From positions 3,205,177 through 3,269,176 of the forward strand of contig NZ_CP054058.1 in assembly GCF_003935895.2 (NCBI RefSeq): a stretch of DNA of 64,000 nt, given 5' to 3'. The notes under the pieces are model-generated. The model saw nothing but the letters and a program-made list of their open reading frames with translations, was not told where the DNA came from and did no database searches. The position numbers and the translations under genes are program-made. Positions 46,480 to 58,090 of the stretch are shown here, piece after piece (position 1 is the first letter of the stretch; each line of letters begins with the position of its first letter). The DNA comes from Scandinavium goeteborgense (GTDB taxonomy: Bacteria; Pseudomonadota; Gammaproteobacteria; Enterobacterales; Enterobacteriaceae).

Positions 46480-47640
46480 TCAGAGTTTACACAGCCTTTC
46501 AGCGGCGGCCAGCAGCGTCGATTCCTGTTTAGCGAAGCACAGGCGAATGAGTTTGTGCGGGAAAGGATCGGCGCAGAATACCGACAGCGGGATCGCCGCC
46601 ACGCCCACTTCCTTGGTCAGCCACTGACAGAAACTCACGTCATCGAGGCTGGAAATGGCGCTGTAATCCGCCAACAGGAAATAGGTGCCTTCGCAGGGCA
46701 GAATTTCGAGGCGACTATTGCCGAGGGCTTCAATAAACAGATCGCGACGCGCGCGATAGAAATCCGGCAGCTCGCGGTAATGTTGCGGTTCGTTGCGCAG
46801 CATATCCGCCAGCGCCAGCTGTGCCGGGGTATTCACCGCAAACGTCAGATACTGATGCACTTTTCGCAGCTCGGCGCTGATTTCCGCCGGGGCCACGCAG
46901 TACCCGACTTTCCAGCCAGTCATGTGGAAGGTTTTACCGAATGACGACACCGCCACCGAACGCTCACGCAACTGCGGATGCGCCAGCACGCTGGCGTGCC
47001 CTTCGACGGCAAAACAGATGTGCTCGTACACTTCGTCGCTCAGCACGTAAATTTCACGATCGGCAATCGCCTGCCACAACGCGTCAAAATCACTTTTCTG
47101 CCAAACGGTGGCCGACGGATTATGCGGCGTGTTGAGAATAACCAACCGGGTTTTGTCGTTCAGCAGTTCGGCAAACGCCTGCCAGTCGACGCGAAATTGC
47201 GGCGGCTGTAGCGCAATGCGCTTGAGGATGCCGCCGGAAAGTTCCACCGCAGGCGCGTAGCTGTCGTAGCTCGGGTCAAAGCAGATAACCTCATCGCCTT
47301 CACGCACCAGCGCGGTGATCGCTGCGTAAAGCGCTTCGGTCGCCCCCGCGGTGACGGTGATGTCGGTATTGGCATCCGGCGTATGCCCGTAAAGCGCCGC
47401 CGTTTTCGCCGCAATCGCCTCACGCAGCGCCGGTACGCCGGTCATCGGCGCGTACTGATTCGCCCCCTGAGACACATGAAACGCCAGACGCTCCTGCAAA
47501 TAGCGCGGGCCATCGAAATTAGGGAAGCCCTGCGACAGGTTAATGGCCTGATATTCGTGCGCCAGGGCGCTCATCTGCGTAAAAATCGTGGTGCCTAAAT
47601 TAGGGAGTTTACTCTGCGGAATCAGTCGGTTATGGCTCAT
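46480..47640 (-). CDS. ybdL: Methionine aminotransferase YbdL
   Basis: YbdL is a PLP-dependent class I aminotransferase that prefers methionine, histidine and phenylalanine; it can transaminate 4-methylthio-2-oxobutyrate to methionine, the last step of methionine salvage. The 386-residue product has the PLP lysine in VSSFGKTFHMTGWKVGY, substrate/cofactor residues in NTPHNPSATVW and DEVYEHI, and the late arginine in KLIRLCFAK. The start at 47640 matches E. coli in length. It is divergent from mtnB with MetJ-type boxes between them, which ties it to methionine recycling. Confidence 0.96.
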   Translation of the reverse strand: MSHNRLIPQSKLPNLGTTIFTQMSALAHEYQAINLSQGFPNFDGPRYLQERLAFHVSQGANQYAPMTGVPALREAIAAKTAALYGHTPDANTDITVTAGATEALYAAITALVREGDEVICFDPSYDSYAPAVELSGGILKRIALQPPQFRVDWQAFAELLNDKTRLVILNTPHNPSATVWQKSDFDALWQAIADREIYVLSDEVYEHICFAVEGHASVLAHPQLRERSVAVSSFGKTFHMTGWKVGYCVAPAEISAELRKVHQYLTFAVNTPAQLALADMLRNEPQHYRELPDFYRARRDLFIEALGNSRLEILPCEGTYFLLADYSAISSLDDVSFCQWLTKEVGVAAIPLSVFCADPFPHKLIRLCFAKQESTLLAAAERLCKL

Positions 47641-47708: not shown

Positions 47709-47724
47709 AGACGCTTAGACGTCT
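47709..47724. promoter_or_regulatory. MetJ operator between ybdL and mtnB
   Basis: AGACGCTT-AGACGTCT: two adjacent met boxes, the second a perfect match to the AGACGTCT consensus and the first 6 of 8. MetJ with S-adenosylmethionine binds such tandem 8-mers cooperatively and represses. Confidence 0.82.
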
Positions 47725-47761: not shown

Positions 47762-48376
47762 ATGACTGAAAACCTGCAACTCGAAGCGCTCGTCGACGCC
47801 TGTCGCTGGATAGGCGCCAAAGGCTGGGCGCCCGCTACCGGCGGAAACATGTCCGTGCGCGAAGATGCCGACCGGTGCTGGCTGAGCGAGTCCGGCAAAG
47901 ACAAAGGCAGCCTGACTGGCGACGATTTTTTGCAGGTGGATATCGCCACCAATCAGGCGCCGTCCGGGCGTAAGCCGTCTGCGGAAACCGGGCTTCATAC
48001 CCTGATTTATCGCCTGTTCCCGGAAGCCGGCGCGGTACTGCACGTTCATACGGTGAATGCGACGGTGCTGTCCCGGGTCGAAAAATCCGCCGAGCTGGTG
48101 CTTCACGGCTACGAAATGCAAAAATCCCTGCGCGGCCAAAGCAGCCACCTCGACGACGTCTCCATTCCGGTGTTTGATAACGACCAGGATATTGACGCCC
48201 TCGCCCGCCGCATCGAACATTACGCTTCCGAGCGCCCGCTCAGTTACGGCTTTCTGCTGCGCGGCCACGGCCTGACCTGCTGGGGACGCGACGTTGCAGA
48301 AGCGCGTCGTCACCTCGAAGGGCTGGAATTTTTATTTGAATGCGAACTGCGCTTGCACCAACTGGAGAAACCATGA
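47762..48376 (+). CDS. mtnB: Methylthioribulose-1-phosphate dehydratase MtnB
   Basis: MtnB dehydrates 5-methylthioribulose-1-phosphate to 2,3-diketo-5-methylthiopentyl-1-phosphate in methionine salvage. The 204-residue product is a class II aldolase-like zinc enzyme with metal ligands in [10 protein letters not shown] (HxH) and RGHGLTCWG, and the [14 protein letters not shown]-terminal block. ATG 47762 is preferred to the in-frame upstream starts, which would overlap the operator. Its stop overlaps the mtnC start (ATGA). Confidence 0.96.
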
Positions 48377-49062
48377 TCCGCGCCATAGTGACCGACATTG
48401 AAGGCACCACCAGCGATATTCGCTTCGTCCATGACGTGCTGTTTCCCTATGCGCGCGAGCGCCTGGCGGCGTTTATCAGCGCGCAGCCGTTCGCCGAGCC
48501 GGTGAAATCAATTCTGGATAATCTGCGCGCAGAAATCGCCCAGCCGGACGCCACCGCAGAGGAACTCACACAAACCTTATTCGCGTTTATGGATGAAGAT
48601 CGTAAATCCACGGCGCTGAAAGCGTTGCAAGGGCTGATCTGGCGCGACGGCTACATCAATGGTGATTTTACCGGCCATCTCTACCCGGATGTGTTGCCGA
48701 CGCTGGAAAAGTGGAAGTCAGAAGGCATTGATCTGTATGTTTATTCCTCCGGCTCAGTCGCGGCACAAAAACTGTTATTTGGTTACAGCGACGAAGGTGA
48801 TATTACTCATCTGTTCAGCGGGTATTTTGATACCCACGTCGGTGCAAAACGCGAAGTGCAGTCTTACCAAAATATTGCGGAGCAGATTGGCCAGTCGGCC
48901 GGGCAAATCCTGTTCCTCTCCGATATTCATCAGGAGCTGGACGCCGCCGCACAGGCCGGTTTTCGTACCGTGCAGTTAATTCGTGGCGATGGCGACACCG
49001 CCAGTCACCACCATCAGGTTTCCCGTTTCGATAAAATCCATCCGGAGCAAATTCCCTCATGA
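48373..49062 (+). CDS. mtnC: Enolase-phosphatase MtnC
   Basis: MtnC is a bifunctional HAD-family enzyme that enolises and then dephosphorylates the MtnB product to give acireductone. The 229-residue product starts [13 protein letters not shown] (HAD motif I, DxE form), with motif II in VYSSGSVAA and motif III/IV around GAKREVQSY and [13 protein letters not shown]. It overlaps mtnB and mtnD by four bases on each side, so mtnBCD is one coupled operon. Confidence 0.96.
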
Positions 49063-49601
49063 GCGCCCTGACTATTTTCTCTGATAAAAACGCCAGCGAA
49101 CCAACCTGGCACAGCACCGACGGCCACGACATTCAGCAGCAGTTGAACGCGAAAGGCGTGCGCTTTGAGCGCTGGGAAGCCGACCGGGATCTGGGTGCCA
49201 ACCCGACGCCGGAAACGGTGATTAATGCGTATCAGCACGCCATCGACAAACTGGTACAGGAAAAAGGTTATCAGAGCTGGGATGTGATCAGCCTGCGCGC
49301 CGATAACCCGCAGAAAGACGCGCTGCGGGCGAAGTTCCTGAATGAACATACTCACGGCGAAGACGAAGTGCGCTTCTTTGTCGAAGGCGCGGGGCTGTTC
49401 TGCCTGCATATCGGCGAGGAGGTGTATCAGGTGCTGTGTGAGAAAAACGATTTGATTTCGGTGCCCGCGGGTACGCCGCACTGGTTTGATATGGGTTCTG
49501 AGCCGAACTTCACCGCCATCCGTATTTTCGATAACCCCGAAGGCTGGATTGCGCAGTTCACCGGTAGTGAGATTGCGAGCGGGTATCCGACACTGGCGTA
49601 A
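49059..49601 (+). CDS. mtnD: Acireductone dioxygenase MtnD
   Basis: MtnD oxidises acireductone; with iron it gives formate and 4-methylthio-2-oxobutyrate, the methionine precursor, while with nickel the off-pathway product forms with carbon monoxide. The 180-residue cupin has metal ligands in [14 protein letters not shown] (two His and Glu) and [12 protein letters not shown] (His). It is the last gene of mtnBCD and is followed by tandem palindromic repeats. Confidence 0.96.
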
Positions 49602-51163: not shown

Positions 51164-52180
51164 TCAGGCAAATTTCCCCGCTGCCACCTCTTCTGGCGTG
51201 ACCACGCCGATGTCCAGCACCCAGCCGCTGATTAACGCCGCGGGAGTGACGTCGAACGCCGGGTTATACACGCGGGCATTTTCAGGCGCCCACTGCACTT
51301 CGCCGAAACTGCCCGCCACGCCGGTGACTTCCGCCGCCGCGCGCTGCTCAATCGGGATGGCTTCACCGTTCGCACAGTTCGGATCAAGCGTGGTCTGCGG
51401 GGCAGCGACATAGAACGGAATACCGTGGAATTTGGCTAGTACCGCCAGCGAATAGGTGCCGATTTTGTTTGCCACGTCGCCGTTGGCGGCGATGCGATCC
51501 GCCCCTACCCAAACGGCATCGACCTGCCCTTTCGCCATCAGACTGGCCGCCATCGAATCGGTAATCAGCTGATACGGCACGCCCAGTTCGCCCAGTTCCC
51601 ACGCGGTGAGTCGCCCGCCCTGCAACAGCGGACGCGTTTCATCGACCCAGACGTTCGCGACGTTGCCCTGCTGATGAGCAAAATTAATCACGCCCAGCGC
51701 CGTTCCCACGCCCGCGGTCGCCAGCCCGCCGGTATTACAATGCGTCAGCAGACGGCTGCCGGGTTTCACCAGCTGGCTGCCCGCAATGGCGATGCGCTCG
51801 CAAAGCTGTTTGTCTTCCTCAATCAGCCGCAGCGCTTCTGCCACCAGCCCCGGAACGAAATCTTCCTGCGCCAGCGCCAGCTTCATGCGGTCGAGATTGT
51901 TCATCAGGTTGACCGCCGTCGGGCGCGACGCGCGCAGAGTTTCCAGCGCATTGAGCAGCGCATCACGGTTCAGGCCGCACTCCGCCAACAGCGCCAGCAA
52001 CAGGCTGGCGGAAAGACCAATCAACGGCGCACCGCGCACTCGCAAGGCATGAATATGGCCGACCAGCGCCTCTACGCTGTTGGCGTCCAGCCAGCGTGAA
52101 GCCTGCGGTAGCGCCTGCTGATCCAGAATAAACAGCTGATTGTCGCGCACCCACAGGCTGGTGGTCTGTAATGTCTGCAT
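51164..52180 (-). CDS. mtnA: Methylthioribose-1-phosphate isomerase MtnA
   Basis: MtnA converts 5-methylthioribose-1-phosphate to the ribulose form. The 338-residue product belongs to the eIF2B-alpha/beta/delta family with [14 protein letters not shown], the catalytic cysteine in [12 protein letters not shown] and the aspartate in [21 protein letters not shown] 52180 is the likely start; the frame is open 40 codons further up, across the operator. It is divergent from mtnK. Confidence 0.96.
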
Positions 52181-52232
52181 ATCGTTAAATCCCTGTTGCG
52201 TTGTTGTATCACATTGTGTCAGGATGAAATCC

Positions 52233-52248
52233 AGATGTATAGACGTCT
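52233..52248. promoter_or_regulatory. MetJ operator between mtnA and mtnK
   Basis: AGATGTAT-AGACGTCT: two adjacent met boxes, 6 of 8 and 8 of 8. For mtnK a possible promoter is TTGTGT (52214-52219), 18 bases, TATAGA (52238-52243), which the operator would cover. Confidence 0.8.
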
Positions 52249-52299
52249 GAATGGCTTTATTTCTGGTTATCTCATCACGAGAACATGAGGATCGAGGCA

Positions 52300-53499
52300 A
52301 TGTCGCAATACCATACCTTCACAGCCCACGATGCCGTGGCTTATGCGCAACAATTTGGCGGCCTCGACGACCCGTCCGAGCTGGTTTCAGCGCAGGAGGT
52401 CGGCGACGGCAATCTCAACCTGGTGTTTAAAATCTTCGACACCCACGGTGTAAGCCGCGTGATCGTCAAACAGGCGCTACCCTACGTACGCTGCGTGGGC
52501 GAATCCTGGCCATTGACGTTGGATCGCGCTCGCCTCGAAGCACAGACGCTGGTCGAGCATTACCAGCACGCCCCGGAACACACGGTGAAAATCCACCATT
52601 TCGACGCCGAACTGGCGGTGATGGTGATGGAAGATTTATCCGACCATCGCATCTGGCGCGGCGAGCTGATTCAGGGCGCATACTACCCGCAGGCGGCGCA
52701 GCAACTCGGGCGCTACCTGGCGCGAACGCTGTTCCACACCAGCGATTTCTACCTGCATCCGCATCAGAAAAAGGCCCAGGTAGCGAATTTCATCAACCCG
52801 GAAATGTGCGAGATTACGGAAGATCTGTTTTTCAACGACCCGTATCAGGTGCACGAGCGCAATAATTATCCGGCAGAGATTGAAGCCGATGTGGTCGCCC
52901 TGCGCGCTGATGCCCAGCTGAAACTGGCGGTGGCTTCGCTCAAGCACCGCTTCTTCTCACAAGCGGAAGCGCTGCTGCACGGCGATATTCACAGCGGGTC
53001 GATTTTTGTCGCCGACGGCAGTCTGAAGGCGATCGACGCAGAGTTTGGTTATTTCGGTCCGATCGGTTTTGACATCGGCACGGCGGTGGGCAACCTGCTG
53101 CTGAACTACTGCGGCTTGCCAGGCCAGCTAGGCATTCGCGATGCCGCCGCCGGACGCGAGCAGCGTCTGGCCGATATTCAGGAGCTGTGGAACACCTTTG
53201 CCGAACATTTCCAGGCGCTGGCGACGGAAAAAACCCAGGATGCCGCGCTGGCTTACCCGGGTTATGCGAGCGAGTTTCTGAAAAAGGTGTGGCACGACGC
53301 AGTGGGTTTCTGCGGCACTGAACTGATTCGCCGCAGCGTCGGGTTGTCTCACGTGGCGGATATCGAGACCATCAAAGACGACACCATGCGCCATGCGTGT
53401 TTACGCCATGCGATTTTGCTGGGGCGCGCGCTGATTGTGTTGGCGGATAGGATTGACAGTGCAGATGAGCTGATTGCGCGAGTTCGGCAGTACAGTTAA
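52300..53499 (+). CDS. mtnK: Methylthioribose kinase MtnK
   Basis: MtnK phosphorylates 5-methylthioribose at C1, the entry step of salvage after MTA cleavage. The 399-residue product (Klebsiella enzyme 399) has an aminoglycoside-phosphotransferase-like fold with the catalytic loop [13 protein letters not shown] and the metal aspartate region [20 protein letters not shown] 52300 is chosen because it begins [11 protein letters not shown] and has GAGG upstream. It is divergent from mtnA and convergent with the ABC transporter genes. E. coli K-12 lacks this gene and excretes methylthioribose. Confidence 0.96.
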
Positions 53500-53552: not shown

Positions 53553-54620
53553 TTACGGCTTATTCTTCGCTTCCAGCGTAGCAAACCACGGTGCGACGAA
53601 ATCTTCGGTCTGGCCCCAGCTTGGGACGATTTTGCCCAGGCTTGCCACGTTCACCGCGCCCGGCTGCGCTGCCAGCAGCGCCTGCGGGATCGCCGCCGCT
53701 TTGAAATCATAGGTCGCAGGCGTTGGCTCGCCGGCGATTTTATTGGCAATCAGGCGCACGTTGGTGGCACCAATCAGTTTCGGGTCCACCGCCACACTCA
53801 CTTTCCACGGGCTGTTCGCCTCACGCATCAGCTGTAAATCCTGGTTGGAAACGTCGATGCTATAGAGTTTAATTTCGGTGCGACCGTTCTCTTTCAGCGC
53901 CTTATACGCGCCCTGGCTGAACGCATCCCAGGTGCCCCAGATAGCGTCGATTTTGCCTTTCGGATACTTCGCCAGCACTGCGCCGACTTTATTGGCGGTG
54001 TCACCCTGCACATCAGAAGAAACCGCCCCGATAGACTCCAGTTCGTGAATGCCCGGGTTCTGCTTCAGCAGCGTCTGGTAACGCGTCTGGCGGCGTTCCA
54101 TCGGCGGGAATCCGGCGACCCACAGCTTGATGATGTTGGCTTTGCCATTGAAGTCCTTCACCAACTGGCCGAAAGAGAGATCGGTCAGCGAGCCGTCATC
54201 CTGCTGGGTGACGGTCACGCCCGGGATTTCGCCTTTTACCGCGGTGTCGAACACCGCCACTTTGATGCCCGCATCAACTGCTTTTTTCACCAGTTCGGTG
54301 GAGTACGGGTCACGGCCCTGCGACAGGATGATCCCGTCATATTTCTGGCTGATGGCCTGGTTGACGAAGTCCTGGAATTTGGCGTCGTCGCCGTTGCTCA
54401 GAAAAGTGCTGACTTTGAATCCGAGCTTTTTGCCTTCCTGAATAGCACCGGAAACGAACTGCGTGGTGTTGTCGTCCGAACCGAGGTTACGCACAATCGC
54501 GATACGAATCGGGCCGCTGTGGTTGGCGATCGCCGCCGGAACCGGGGTTGGCGTTTCAGCATAGGCGGCAACGGAATTGAGCAACCCGAGCGCGATGAGT
54601 GACAGCGTGATTTTTTTCAT
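53553..54620 (-). CDS. Sugar-type ABC transporter substrate-binding protein (possible methylthioribose-binding)
   Basis: The 355-residue product is a periplasmic binding protein of the ribose/galactose class (Peripla_BP_4 type), with signal peptide MKKITLSLIALGLL...AYA. Recognisable parts are IRIAIVRNLGSDDNTTQFVSG, GIILSQGRDPYSTELVKKAVDAGIKVAVFD and IDAIWGTWDAFSQGAYKAL. It is the last gene of a three-gene transport operon whose promoter region contains MetJ-type boxes. Neighbouring mtnK suggests a methylthio-sugar ligand, perhaps 5-methylthioribose; ribose or another pentose remains possible. Confidence 0.85.
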   Translation of the reverse strand: MKKITLSLIALGLLNSVAAYAETPTPVPAAIANHSGPIRIAIVRNLGSDDNTTQFVSGAIQEGKKLGFKVSTFLSNGDDAKFQDFVNQAISQKYDGIILSQGRDPYSTELVKKAVDAGIKVAVFDTAVKGEIPGVTVTQQDDGSLTDLSFGQLVKDFNGKANIIKLWVAGFPPMERRQTRYQTLLKQNPGIHELESIGAVSSDVQGDTANKVGAVLAKYPKGKIDAIWGTWDAFSQGAYKALKENGRTEIKLYSIDVSNQDLQLMREANSPWKVSVAVDPKLIGATNVRLIANKIAGEPTPATYDFKAAAIPQALLAAQPGAVNVASLGKIVPSWGQTEDFVAPWFATLEAKNKP

Positions 54621-54671
54621 TTTGTTTACCCTGATTGTTGTTATGTCTGAGTTGTTGTTATGTGCGAAGCG

Positions 54672-55670
54672 TTATGTCCGGCGCTGGAAATAGGTCAGAG
54701 CCAGCGCGCCTGCCAGCACCAGACCTTTGATGATGTCCATCGCGTAGTACGGTACCGACAGCATCACCAGCCCGTTCGACAGCACGCCAAGAATCACCGC
54801 CCCCACTAACGTGCCGAGCGCGTTGGGTTTACCCGATCCTGCCAGCGAGAAGCCAATCCACGCAGCCGCGACCGCATCCATCAGGTAGCCGCTGCCCGCG
54901 TTCACCTGCGACGAGCCGATGCGCGACGCCAGCAGAATGCCGCCCAGTCCGGCGAGCAGCGAGGCAATCACGTACGCCGCCACTTTGTAACGCGTGGTGC
55001 GAAGCCCCGACAGGCGCGCCGCTTCCGGGTTGCCGCCAATCGCGTACATCCGCCGCCCGTGGGTGGTCAGCGAGAGCACCAGCTGCGCCACCACCGTGAC
55101 CACCAGCATGATAATCACAATGGTCGGCACCTGACCGAGCAGGCCAAACGCCGCCGGGATCGTGCCTTCCGCCATATCGCCGCTCGGCAGTACCATGTTT
55201 TCGGTTATCGAGCCGCCGAAGCTGTAGGTCGCCGCCACGCCCTGCACCACGAACAAACTGGCGAGTGTCGCGAGCATGTCGGGAATACGCAGAATGACAA
55301 TTAAAAAGGCGTTAAACAGCCCCACCAGGGTGCACAGCAGCAGCGTGACCACAATCGCTTCGGTGGTGCCGAAGCCGTGCCAGACGAACAGCGAAATCAC
55401 CAGCGCATTTGCCAGCGACGCGGTCGAACCGACGGACAAATCAAAGCCGCCGACGGTGAGTGAAATTGACACACCGACGGCAATCACCGTCACGATGGCA
55501 ATCGAACGCAGGATGTTGATGATGTTGAACGGATCGAGGAAGTTATCCGACGCGAGGCCAAAAATCGCCACCAGCGCCACCACGGTCAGCAACATGCCCC
55601 ACTTATAGAGAAAATCGAAAAACTGCTGACGGCCCGATGCCGTCGCTTTAACTGTCAGGGCCTTGCTCAC
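54672..55670 (-). CDS. Sugar-type ABC transporter permease
   Basis: The 332-residue product is a BPD_transp_2 family inner-membrane permease like RbsC, with 8-10 hydrophobic segments and the family signature GGFDLSVGSTASLANALV, then NPEAARLSGLRTTRYKVAAYV (EAA-like loop) and SRIGSSQVNAGSGYLMDAVAAAWIGG-type end region. It starts with GTG at 55670, overlapping the ATPase stop by four bases, so it is coupled to it. Same presumed substrate as the binding protein. Confidence 0.87.
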   Translation of the reverse strand: MSKALTVKATASGRQQFFDFLYKWGMLLTVVALVAIFGLASDNFLDPFNIINILRSIAIVTVIAVGVSISLTVGGFDLSVGSTASLANALVISLFVWHGFGTTEAIVVTLLLCTLVGLFNAFLIVILRIPDMLATLASLFVVQGVAATYSFGGSITENMVLPSGDMAEGTIPAAFGLLGQVPTIVIIMLVVTVVAQLVLSLTTHGRRMYAIGGNPEAARLSGLRTTRYKVAAYVIASLLAGLGGILLASRIGSSQVNAGSGYLMDAVAAAWIGFSLAGSGKPNALGTLVGAVILGVLSNGLVMLSVPYYAMDIIKGLVLAGALALTYFQRRT

Positions 55671-57169
55671 GACGCCGCTCCTCCGGTGGAGTAATAAAGT
55701 AGGGTTTCTTCGCGGGCCTCAGCGCCCGCCACTTCTGCCACAATGCGTCCGTCCCACAGCACGCAGATCCGGTCGCATAAGCCGACCAGCTCCGCAAATT
55801 CGCCGGAGGCGTAAATCACGCCTTTGCCTTCGCGGGCCAGGCCGTCAATCAGGTTGAACAAATCGGTTTTGGCTTTGACGTCCACGCCTTTGGTCGGCTC
55901 GTCAAAAATCAGTACATTGGCATTGCCGCGCAGCCATTTGCCAATCGCCACTTTTTGCTGATTACCGCCCGACAACCTGCGCAGCGTCTGCGACGGGCCG
56001 GTGGTGCGAATGCCGATGCGGGCGATGACTTCTTCCGCCCAGCGCCAGGCTTTTCGATGCCCGAACAGGCTCCAGCGGGAAAAGCTGTTATCGGCCCCCA
56101 CCGCCAGATTCATGCCGATCGACTCATCGATGAAAATGCCCTCTTTGCGCCGCTCTTCCGGCACCAGTGCCAGCCCGCGTAGCACCGAATCTGCCGGGTC
56201 ACGTGGCCGCCACGGCTGCCCGTTCAGCTCAGCACGATCAACGCGGCTTTTACTGGCACCAAACAGCGCCTTGCACAGTTCGGTTTTTCCGGCCCCCGCC
56301 AGCCCGGCGATGCCCAAAATTTCGCCTTTGCGCAGCCGCAAAGAGATGTCCTGCAACAGGTGTTCGTCGTGTAGCCCATCGACCTGCAACACCACGTCGT
56401 CGCTGTAGGCCGGGCGCGCCGGGGGGAAAATATCGGTCAGCTCGTGGCCCAACATTTTTTCGACAATCTGCTCACCGGTCAGCGCTGCCATCGGCCCACT
56501 TTCGATTAAGCGCCCGTCGCGCAGCACCGTCAGGGTGTCGCAAATGGCTTTTAATTCGTGAATGCGGTGAGAGATAAACACCACGCCAATGCCCTGCTGT
56601 TGCAGGCGTCTGACCACCGTAAACAGGCGCTCGCTTTCGTGGCTGTCGAGCGGGGCGGTCGGCTCGTCGAGGATCAGAAAACGGCAGTGGTGCGACAGCG
56701 CGCGCGCCAGCAAAATTTGCTGTTTCTCCGCCAGAGAACAGCTGTCGATGGGGCGCTTCACATCGAGTTGCACGTCGAGCTGCGCCAGGGCCGCTTTCGC
56801 CTGCTGACGCACCTGCCGCCAGCTGAAGCGGTATCCCGGCCCGGCCAGATGGTCGAGCATGATGTTCTCGGCCACCGACAGGCCCGGCACCAGCGCCACG
56901 TCCACTTCCTGCTGCACCAGATGAATACCGGTTTTTTTGGCATCGCGCGGCGAGCGAATATTCACCGGCTGATTGTCGAGCAGGATCTCGCCCTCATAGT
57001 GATCGTACGTGCCGCACAGCACCGCCATCAGCGTCGACTTGCCTGCGCCGTTGGCCCCTGTCAGGGCGTGCACCGACCCGCCGGTGAGGGTAAAGGTCAC
57101 CTGCGTCAGAGCTTTGAAACCGGAAAAGGCCAGGCTGATGTCGCGCATCTCGAGGCGATTATCTACCAT
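55667..57169 (-). CDS. Sugar-type ABC transporter ATPase (two-domain, RbsA-like)
   Basis: The 500-residue product has two ABC domains, as RbsA and MglA do. The first has Walker A GANGAGKSTL, signature LAEKQQILLARAL and Walker B FLILDEPTAPLD; the second has GLAGAGKTELCK, LSGGNQQKVAIGKWL and VLIFDEPTKGVD. ATG 57169 gives MVDNRLEMRDISLAF and a normal length; ATG 57196 would add nine residues and begin three bases from the MetJ boxes. First gene of the transporter operon, divergent from an SDR gene. Confidence 0.88.
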   Translation of the reverse strand: MVDNRLEMRDISLAFSGFKALTQVTFTLTGGSVHALTGANGAGKSTLMAVLCGTYDHYEGEILLDNQPVNIRSPRDAKKTGIHLVQQEVDVALVPGLSVAENIMLDHLAGPGYRFSWRQVRQQAKAALAQLDVQLDVKRPIDSCSLAEKQQILLARALSHHCRFLILDEPTAPLDSHESERLFTVVRRLQQQGIGVVFISHRIHELKAICDTLTVLRDGRLIESGPMAALTGEQIVEKMLGHELTDIFPPARPAYSDDVVLQVDGLHDEHLLQDISLRLRKGEILGIAGLAGAGKTELCKALFGASKSRVDRAELNGQPWRPRDPADSVLRGLALVPEERRKEGIFIDESIGMNLAVGADNSFSRWSLFGHRKAWRWAEEVIARIGIRTTGPSQTLRRLSGGNQQKVAIGKWLRGNANVLIFDEPTKGVDVKAKTDLFNLIDGLAREGKGVIYASGEFAELVGLCDRICVLWDGRIVAEVAGAEAREETLLYYSTGGAAS

Positions 57170-57198
57170 TCGCTGCAAACCCCTATAATTAGCCATCC

Positions 57199-57214
57199 AG
57201 ACACCTAGACATAT
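57199..57214. promoter_or_regulatory. MetJ-like operator upstream of the ABC transporter
   Basis: AGACACCT-AGACATAT: two adjacent 8-mers, each 6 of 8 to AGACGTCT, sharing AGAC starts in register. This is weaker than the two other MetJ sites in the window but has the same tandem layout. It sits directly before the transporter genes and about 130 bases from the SDR gene. Confidence 0.6.
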
Positions 57215-57346
57215 TTCAGGCTAACGATAATACACAGATCAATAACAAATGAGCAACAGTGATATTAATCTGGTCGCTGGGCTGAGCGAGCGCTATACCT
57301 AATGAGGGTTCTCATCCGAAGACTCATCACAACATCTGGGGCAACT

Positions 57347-58090
57347 ATGCATATCTCTCTGACAGGTAAACGCGCGCTGGTGACGGGTGCCAGCCGCGGG
57401 CTTGGGCGTGCAATTGCGCTTTCACTGGCACAAGCGGGCGCTGACGTGGTTATCACTTACGAAAAATCAGCCGACAAGGCGCAGGCGGTGGCGGAAGAGA
57501 TCCGCGCGCTGGGCCGTAAAGGCCATGCGATTCAGGCAGACAGCAGCAATGCACAGGCCATCGTGCAGGCGGTGAATGAGTCAGCGGAAACCTTGGGTGG
57601 GCTGGATATTCTGGTCAATAACGCCGGGATAGCCCGCGACGGCCCACTGGAATCCATGTCGCTGGAGGATATTGATGCGGTGATTGGGGTGAACATTCGC
57701 GGGGTGGTGATTGCGACTCAGGCCGCGCTGGCCCATCTGGGTCAGGGTGGACGAATCATTAATATCGGCAGTTGTCTGGCGAACCGTGTGTCGTTTGGCG
57801 GCATCTCGGTCTATGCGATGAGTAAATCGGCGCTGAACTCGTTCACCCGTGGACTGGCCCGTGATTTAGGCCCGAAAGGCATCACCGTCAATCTGGTGCA
57901 TCCCGGCCCAACCGACAGCGACATGAACCCGGCCGACGGCGAACAGGCCGAGGGCCAGCGCCAGCAAATTGCGATTGGCCATTACGGTAAACCGGAAGAT
58001 ATCGCCGCCGCCGTCACGTTCCTCGTCAGCCCCGCCGCCGGACAAATCACCGGCACTGGCCTGGACGTTGATGGGGGTCTGAACGCCTGA
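57347..58090 (+). CDS. Short-chain dehydrogenase/reductase
   Basis: The 247-residue product is a classical SDR with cofactor motif TGASRGLGRAI, NNAG (ILVNNAGIA), catalytic Ser in NIGSCLANR and YAMSK (Tyr, Lys), and the late block HPGPTDSDMNPADGEQAEG, which resembles E. coli BdcA more than FabG. An acidic/basic context after strand 2 (ITYEKS) suggests either cofactor. ATG 57347 follows TGGGGC. It is divergent from the methylthioribose-type transporter and occupies the place of ybdH in E. coli. Substrate unknown. Confidence 0.85.
   Translation: MHISLTGKRALVTGASRGLGRAIALSLAQAGADVVITYEKSADKAQAVAEEIRALGRKGHAIQADSSNAQAIVQAVNESAETLGGLDILVNNAGIARDGPLESMSLEDIDAVIGVNIRGVVIATQAALAHLGQGGRIINIGSCLANRVSFGGISVYAMSKSALNSFTRGLARDLGPKGITVNLVHPGPTDSDMNPADGEQAEGQRQQIAIGHYGKPEDIAAAVTFLVSPAAGQITGTGLDVDGGLNA

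Follow-up and report, generated by a model that had tools for sequence, protein, structure and literature searches.

The operon and its surroundings

The window analysed here, a stretch of 64,000 nucleotides from Scandinavium goeteborgense (contig NZ_CP054058.1, positions 3,205,177 to 3,269,176), carries on its minus strand, at 53553-57196, an operon for an ATP-binding cassette (ABC) importer of the ribose type, composed of genes for an ATPase, a permease and a periplasmic binding protein and lying next to mtnK, the gene for 5-methylthioribose kinase. We regard it as highly probable that this operon is mtrACB, that its product imports 5-methylthioribose under the control of MetJ, and that it feeds the methionine-salvage pathway encoded beside it.

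Two PF00005 domains, PF02653 and PF13407 are found together within the single operon, which is the domain set of a ribose-type ABC importer, and mtrA and mtrC overlap by 4 bases. For mtrA an alternative start, the internal ATG at 57169, gives a protein of 500 residues and is the one that aligns with the starts of its relatives. mtnK lies downstream of the operon in convergent orientation, across a gap of 53 bases, and is followed further on by mtnA, mtnD, mtnC, mtnB and mtnE, so that mtnK, A, B, C, D and E are grouped within the same 11 kb; MetJ and the nucleosidase MtnN are encoded elsewhere in the genome. An earlier note on this DNA had described the ATPase, permease and binding-protein genes as one operon adjoining mtnK, a description borne out by the coordinates, the Pfam families and the TIGR01767 match of MtnK.

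The MetJ operator and its conservation

Sites were scored with the MetJ weight matrix given in Table 3 of Augustus and Spicer 2011 (PMC3228920), which was derived from E. coli MetJ regulon genes and their homologues, the mtrACB operon not being among them. Following the same paper, a site had to reach the consensus value of 12.58, and a single box one quarter of that value. Three adjacent boxes were found before mtrA, namely AGCCATCC (57191-57198, 5.86 bits), which overlaps the ATG lying farthest upstream in mtrA, AGACACCT (57199-57206, 6.45 bits) and AGACATAT (57207-57214, 8.57 bits), with a summed score of 20.88 bits. The two 8-mers that had been picked out as MetJ-like in the earlier note are placed exactly and correspond to the second and third of these boxes. 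Its further statement that two stronger MetJ sites lie nearby holds for the site between mtnA and mtnK and has to be corrected for the one before mtnB, which despite its perfect box does not exceed 20.88 by summed score.

In the 64 kb there are three sites above the threshold, each located before salvage genes or before the mtrACB operon. A score of 20.88 was reached by none of 20,000 first-order Markov sequences representing the 132-base region, the fraction at the two-box score of 15.02 being 0.0006, and ten simulated sequences of 64 kb contained a mean of 0.3 sites each, none scoring 20.88. A scan of 57000-57500 for promoters and terminators found none.

Conservation of the operator was followed in 80 loci of close relatives, the best of 265 related stretches, by scanning from 60 bases inside the mtrA start to 300 bases upstream. 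mtrA was present in 72 of them and a MetJ site preceded it in every case (72/72), these loci being closely related and not amounting to 72 independent events. Of the other eight, six show a site ahead of the gene for the binding protein, and two (L055 and L057) are without one, their contigs ending short of the ATPase start. By comparison, a MetJ site was found in none of 11 loci outside the window's family. Three plasmid loci were also scanned, giving two sites in L132 (Klebsiella pneumoniae, NZ_OP378648.1) and none in L133 and L134; the L132 record, 316 kb in length and listed as a plasmid, holds the stretch from cstA to mtnA including the operon.

MetJ repression of the operon in the window is predicted from its operator sequence, and in relatives it has been measured with reporters (PMC3228920), the ratios being 0.42 for Klebsiella mtrA and no more than 0.12 for a relative's mtrB.

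Co-occurrence with mtnK

In a sample of 178 genomes of the family, the binding protein (E <=1e-100) was found in 48, all of which also carry mtnK (48/48), mtnK itself being present in 64 of the 178 and unaccompanied by the binding protein in 16. The two genes are no more than 12 kb apart in 23 of these 48 genomes; in 8 they share a contig at distances of 0.3 to 2.7 Mb, and in 17 they are on different contigs. In the order sample (247 genomes) the binding protein (E <=1e-30) occurred in 9 genomes, each of which belongs to the 20 whose mtnK scores above the cut-off, and in the phylum sample (329 genomes) a binding-protein relative (E <=1e-25) occurred in 21, of which 15 were among the 28 with mtnK. 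Where both genes were found in phylum genomes outside the family, they lay within about 4.2 kb of each other in all cases (10/10), and complete related operons with 30-43% identity stand beside mtnK and mtnA in L089, L105, L111, L112 and L114; relatives in other families, at about 31% identity, likewise adjoin mtnK. One further locus, L110, has a different type of binding protein. The paralogues from the genome itself (L116-L122), chosen as longest open frames and mostly the wrong genes, were left out of account. The two matters that the earlier note had left to genome comparison, met boxes before mtrA in relatives and the company of mtnK, have therefore both come out in favour of its proposal.

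Neighbouring genes and features of the lineage

The coordinates of the operon, the salvage genes and the MetJ operators are collected in Table 1. The product of mtnD, recognised through its Pfam domain, had no match among NCBIfam models at 1e-20.

Table 1. Genes and MetJ operators of the mtrACB and methionine-salvage region of the window (ORF, open reading frame; SDR, short-chain dehydrogenase/reductase)
Feature	Position	Strand	Product or structure	Evidence
mtrA	55667-57196	-	ATPase, two ABC domains, 509 residues	PF00005, two stretches
mtrC	54672-55670	-	permease, 332 residues	PF02653, 117 bits
mtrB	53553-54620	-	periplasmic sugar-binding protein, 355 residues	PF13407, 105 bits; signal peptide by eye
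MetJ operator before mtrA	57191-57214		three adjacent boxes	sum 20.88 bits
mtnK	52285-53499 (likely start 52300)	+	5-methylthioribose kinase	TIGR01767, 503 bits (cut-off 275); PDB 2olc (methylthioribose kinase), 317 bits
MetJ operator between mtnA and mtnK	52233-52256			25.16 bits (published matrix)
mtnA	51164-52180	-	methylthioribose-1-phosphate isomerase	TIGR00512, 400 bits (cut-off 279), scored on longer ORF 51164-52300
mtnD	49059-49601	+	acireductone dioxygenase	PF03079, 122 bits
mtnC	48373-49062	+	acireductone synthase	TIGR01691, 331 bits (cut-off 128), scored on longer ORF 48340-49062
mtnB	47762-48376	+	methylthioribulose-1-phosphate dehydratase	NF006672, 335 bits (cut-off 226)
MetJ operator before mtnB	47709-47724		two boxes, one perfect	18.57 bits (published matrix)
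mtnE	46480-47640	-	methionine aminotransferase	NF006569, 689 bits (cut-off 420)
SDR-family dehydrogenase gene	57302-58090 (likely start 57347)	+	dehydrogenase, divergent from mtrA	PF13561, 203 bits

In most relatives ybdH and mtrA stand on opposite sides of the operator, and mtrY occupies the interval from mtrB to mtnK. A full ybdH is present in 67 of 81 sequences and absent from the window, where tblastn with YbdH gave no match even at E 10. A 17-residue frame at 57249, which tblastn did not report, begins like YbdH when inspected by eye, and to call it a remnant of ybdH would be a guess. mtrY, whose position after mtrB is usual for mtrACB without being required, was matched in 74 of the 81 sequences and is missing from the window and from L009, L010, L024, L025, L039 and L084.

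Of the 81 sequences, 38 were found to contain the SDR dehydrogenase gene, which in 33 is accompanied by ybdH, the two genes lying 50-100 bases apart in 26 of the 33. In the five sequences that have the dehydrogenase gene without ybdH (the window, L009, L010, L024 and L025) it adjoins the MetJ operator, and within the region 57226-58090 it may be a direct target of MetJ. In the window (at 57169-57196) and in L010, moreover, the leader between the operator and mtrA is shorter by 79 alignment columns that L009 has, and the MetJ operator consequently reaches into the farthest upstream of the possible ATG starts of mtrA.

Binding-protein genes without an ATPase or permease gene in the same locus were observed in L073, L078 and L086-L088 and on the plasmids L133 (Erwinia sorbitola) and L134 (Rahnella aquatilis). 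In L133 the gene is flanked by an oxidoreductase gene and a gene with LVIVD repeats (mtrY-like), and in L134 an oxidoreductase gene is again on one side, with a hypothetical gene of similar size on the other. These orphan loci resemble the ybdH2-mtrB2-mtrY2 set of PMC3228920.

Discussion

The gene content of the operon, the sequence and conservation of its operator and its association with mtnK are direct observations, and from them we infer what MtrACB transports and in which direction. In the proposed mechanism, periplasmic MtrB would capture 5-methylthioribose that other cells have released, the permease with the double ATPase would carry it inward and MtnK would phosphorylate it, after which MtnA, MtnB, MtnC, MtnD and MtnE would convert the phosphorylated product to methionine. 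MetJ, together with S-adenosylmethionine, would repress the operon through the three boxes at 57191-57214, and uptake would thus increase when methionine is scarce. The import of methylthioribose under methionine control, as advanced in the earlier note, is supported by the co-occurrence with mtnK, by the MetJ boxes and by the presence of a separate ribose-binding protein gene in the genome.

This reading is correct and well supported in our assessment, and it is already in print as a prediction accompanied by partial regulatory evidence. Augustus and Spicer 2011 (PMC3228920) named mtrACB 'a probable MTR transporter' and reported its metboxes, describing the system as not functionally characterised, and they proposed that species with mtrACB are likely to take up the methylthioribose that E. 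coli excretes, the same inference as that of the earlier note; when an E. coli collection was searched with the operon at E 1e-30, no match was found. The earlier note's view that there is no settled experimental assignment for this transporter consequently stands in one respect, since no import measurement for mtrACB was found in the literature searched (which did not cover most subscription journals), and has to be amended in another, the assignment having been in print as a prediction since 2011. PMC4239095 places mtnXYZ, a set for methylthioribose uptake, in the MetJ regulon, and this is probably the same set as mtrACB, judging by its stated function. PMC7843439 annotates mtrB likewise, and PMC4958253 deals with methionine transport proteins, no methylthioribose importer being shown in the portions available.

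Several points weigh against this reading. The pattern AGAC-N4-AGAC is not enriched genome-wide (68 matches, compared with 144 for the reversed control), so that its counts were not adopted to judge the boxes and the case for MetJ rests on the matrix and on conservation. For 4ry8, a PDB relative of MtrB, a complex with 5-methylthioribose is presumed, the PDB search naming no ligand. The samples used for co-occurrence share members and consist of related genomes, with the result that Fisher values overstate the association, and some of the 17 mtrB/mtnK pairs on different contigs may reflect assembly breaks. Six of the 21 phylum genomes with a relative of the binding protein have no mtnK over the cut-off, which indicates that the family is not uniform at about 30% identity. 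According to PMC3228920, of 41 Enterobacteria that have mtrA only 19 showed metboxes there, and repression at the Klebsiella mtrA site, with its ratio of 0.42, was only moderate. Lastly, the mtnK-mtnA-aldolase cluster of L089 has no metbox and suggests a wider range of 5-deoxypentoses.

It is this cluster which favours the best of the alternatives, an unlikely one in our estimation, in which the transporter's main substrate would be a different 5-substituted pentose, for example 5-deoxyribose, methylthioribose being secondary and MtnK and MtnA handling both. In L089 (G178) mtnK, mtnA and a gene for a class II aldolase come after a related operon, and a gene for a regulator containing a PF04198 sugar-binding domain lies upstream; the whole looks like a dihydroxyacetone phosphate (DHAP) shunt equipped with an ABC importer and resembles the DHAP shunt of PMC12632272, a resemblance that makes 5-deoxyribose a fair second substrate. 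Against this, the remaining genes of the window's cluster are mtnB, mtnC, mtnD and mtnE, control is by MetJ boxes, and the L089 proteins are merely 31-42% identical to those of the window. A broader proposal can be made only tentatively, and we think it rather more doubtful than not: MtrACB and its relatives could be one importer family for 5-deoxypentoses generally (methylthioribose and 5-deoxyribose), belonging to MetJ-controlled methionine salvage in enterobacteria and elsewhere to an mtnK-mtnA-aldolase pathway, similar to the DHAP shunt, under a sugar-sensing regulator, while in the window's lineage the absence of ybdH leaves the short-chain dehydrogenase gene nearest across the MetJ operator and perhaps directly controlled by MetJ.

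A second importer for ribose or another plain pentose, placed in the salvage cluster by accident, is very improbable. Its Pfam domains are common to ribose transporters and the PDB relatives of MtrB include chains named as ribose-binding; the strongest PDB matches are 5ulb (621 bits, a putative sugar ABC transporter) and 4ry8 (165.5 bits, a periplasmic binding protein), the PDB search giving no ligand name for either, and literature searches retrieved no paper for 4RY8, 5ULB, EFI-511109 or TLET_1677, nor for Thermotoga lettingae with methylthioribose. MtrB, by contrast, reaches 26.3 bits with the RbsB equivalog NF007936, whose cut-off is 337, and is far under the cut-off of every NCBIfam equivalog that it matched, as is MtrC with its best ones, GguB and the ribose permease. 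The genome's own RbsB, encoded elsewhere, scores 584.6 bits, and the presence of this genuine RbsB makes ribose unlikely as the substrate of MtrACB. In addition, the co-occurrence with mtnK also holds for widely separated genes and the MetJ operator is conserved. A ribose importer was rejected on the low RbsB score and the separate RbsB. Least probable of all, and likewise rejected, is that the 8-mers are chance matches in an operon outside MetJ control, for which the unenriched pattern and the weakness of each box alone in relation to the consensus speak, and against which stand the simulations, the contrast between 72/72 mtrA loci and 0/11 outside the family and the published measurements, made in relatives, of mtrA and mtrB repression (PMC3228920).

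The present value of reading the operon as a methylthioribose importer is that of an independent check of the 2011 prediction on more genomes, and the related operon in a DHAP-shunt-like cluster offers a lead on the substrate range. If the substrate is confirmed, carriers of the operon can feed on a sulphur compound which others discard, constituting a simple cross-feeding link in mixed communities.

Comparison with known systems

With RbsABC the system shares its domain families, the double ATPase and the single permease gene, and it differs in that its proteins are under the RbsA, RbsB and RbsC equivalog cut-offs and that a true RbsB is present elsewhere in the genome. MtrA of B. subtilis (formerly YfnA) is probably a single permease outside the ABC class, so that the experiment there does not transfer to mtrACB. 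The likeness between the two lies in the proposed substrate and role, B. subtilis MtrA being responsible for methylthioribose influx (PMC5743806). The closest counterpart is mtrACB as described in PMC3228920, with which the operon in the window shares the same three subunits, the position in the salvage cluster and the metboxes upstream, and from which it departs by being without the usual companions mtrY and ybdH and by having 79 alignment columns fewer than L009 between the operator and mtrA.

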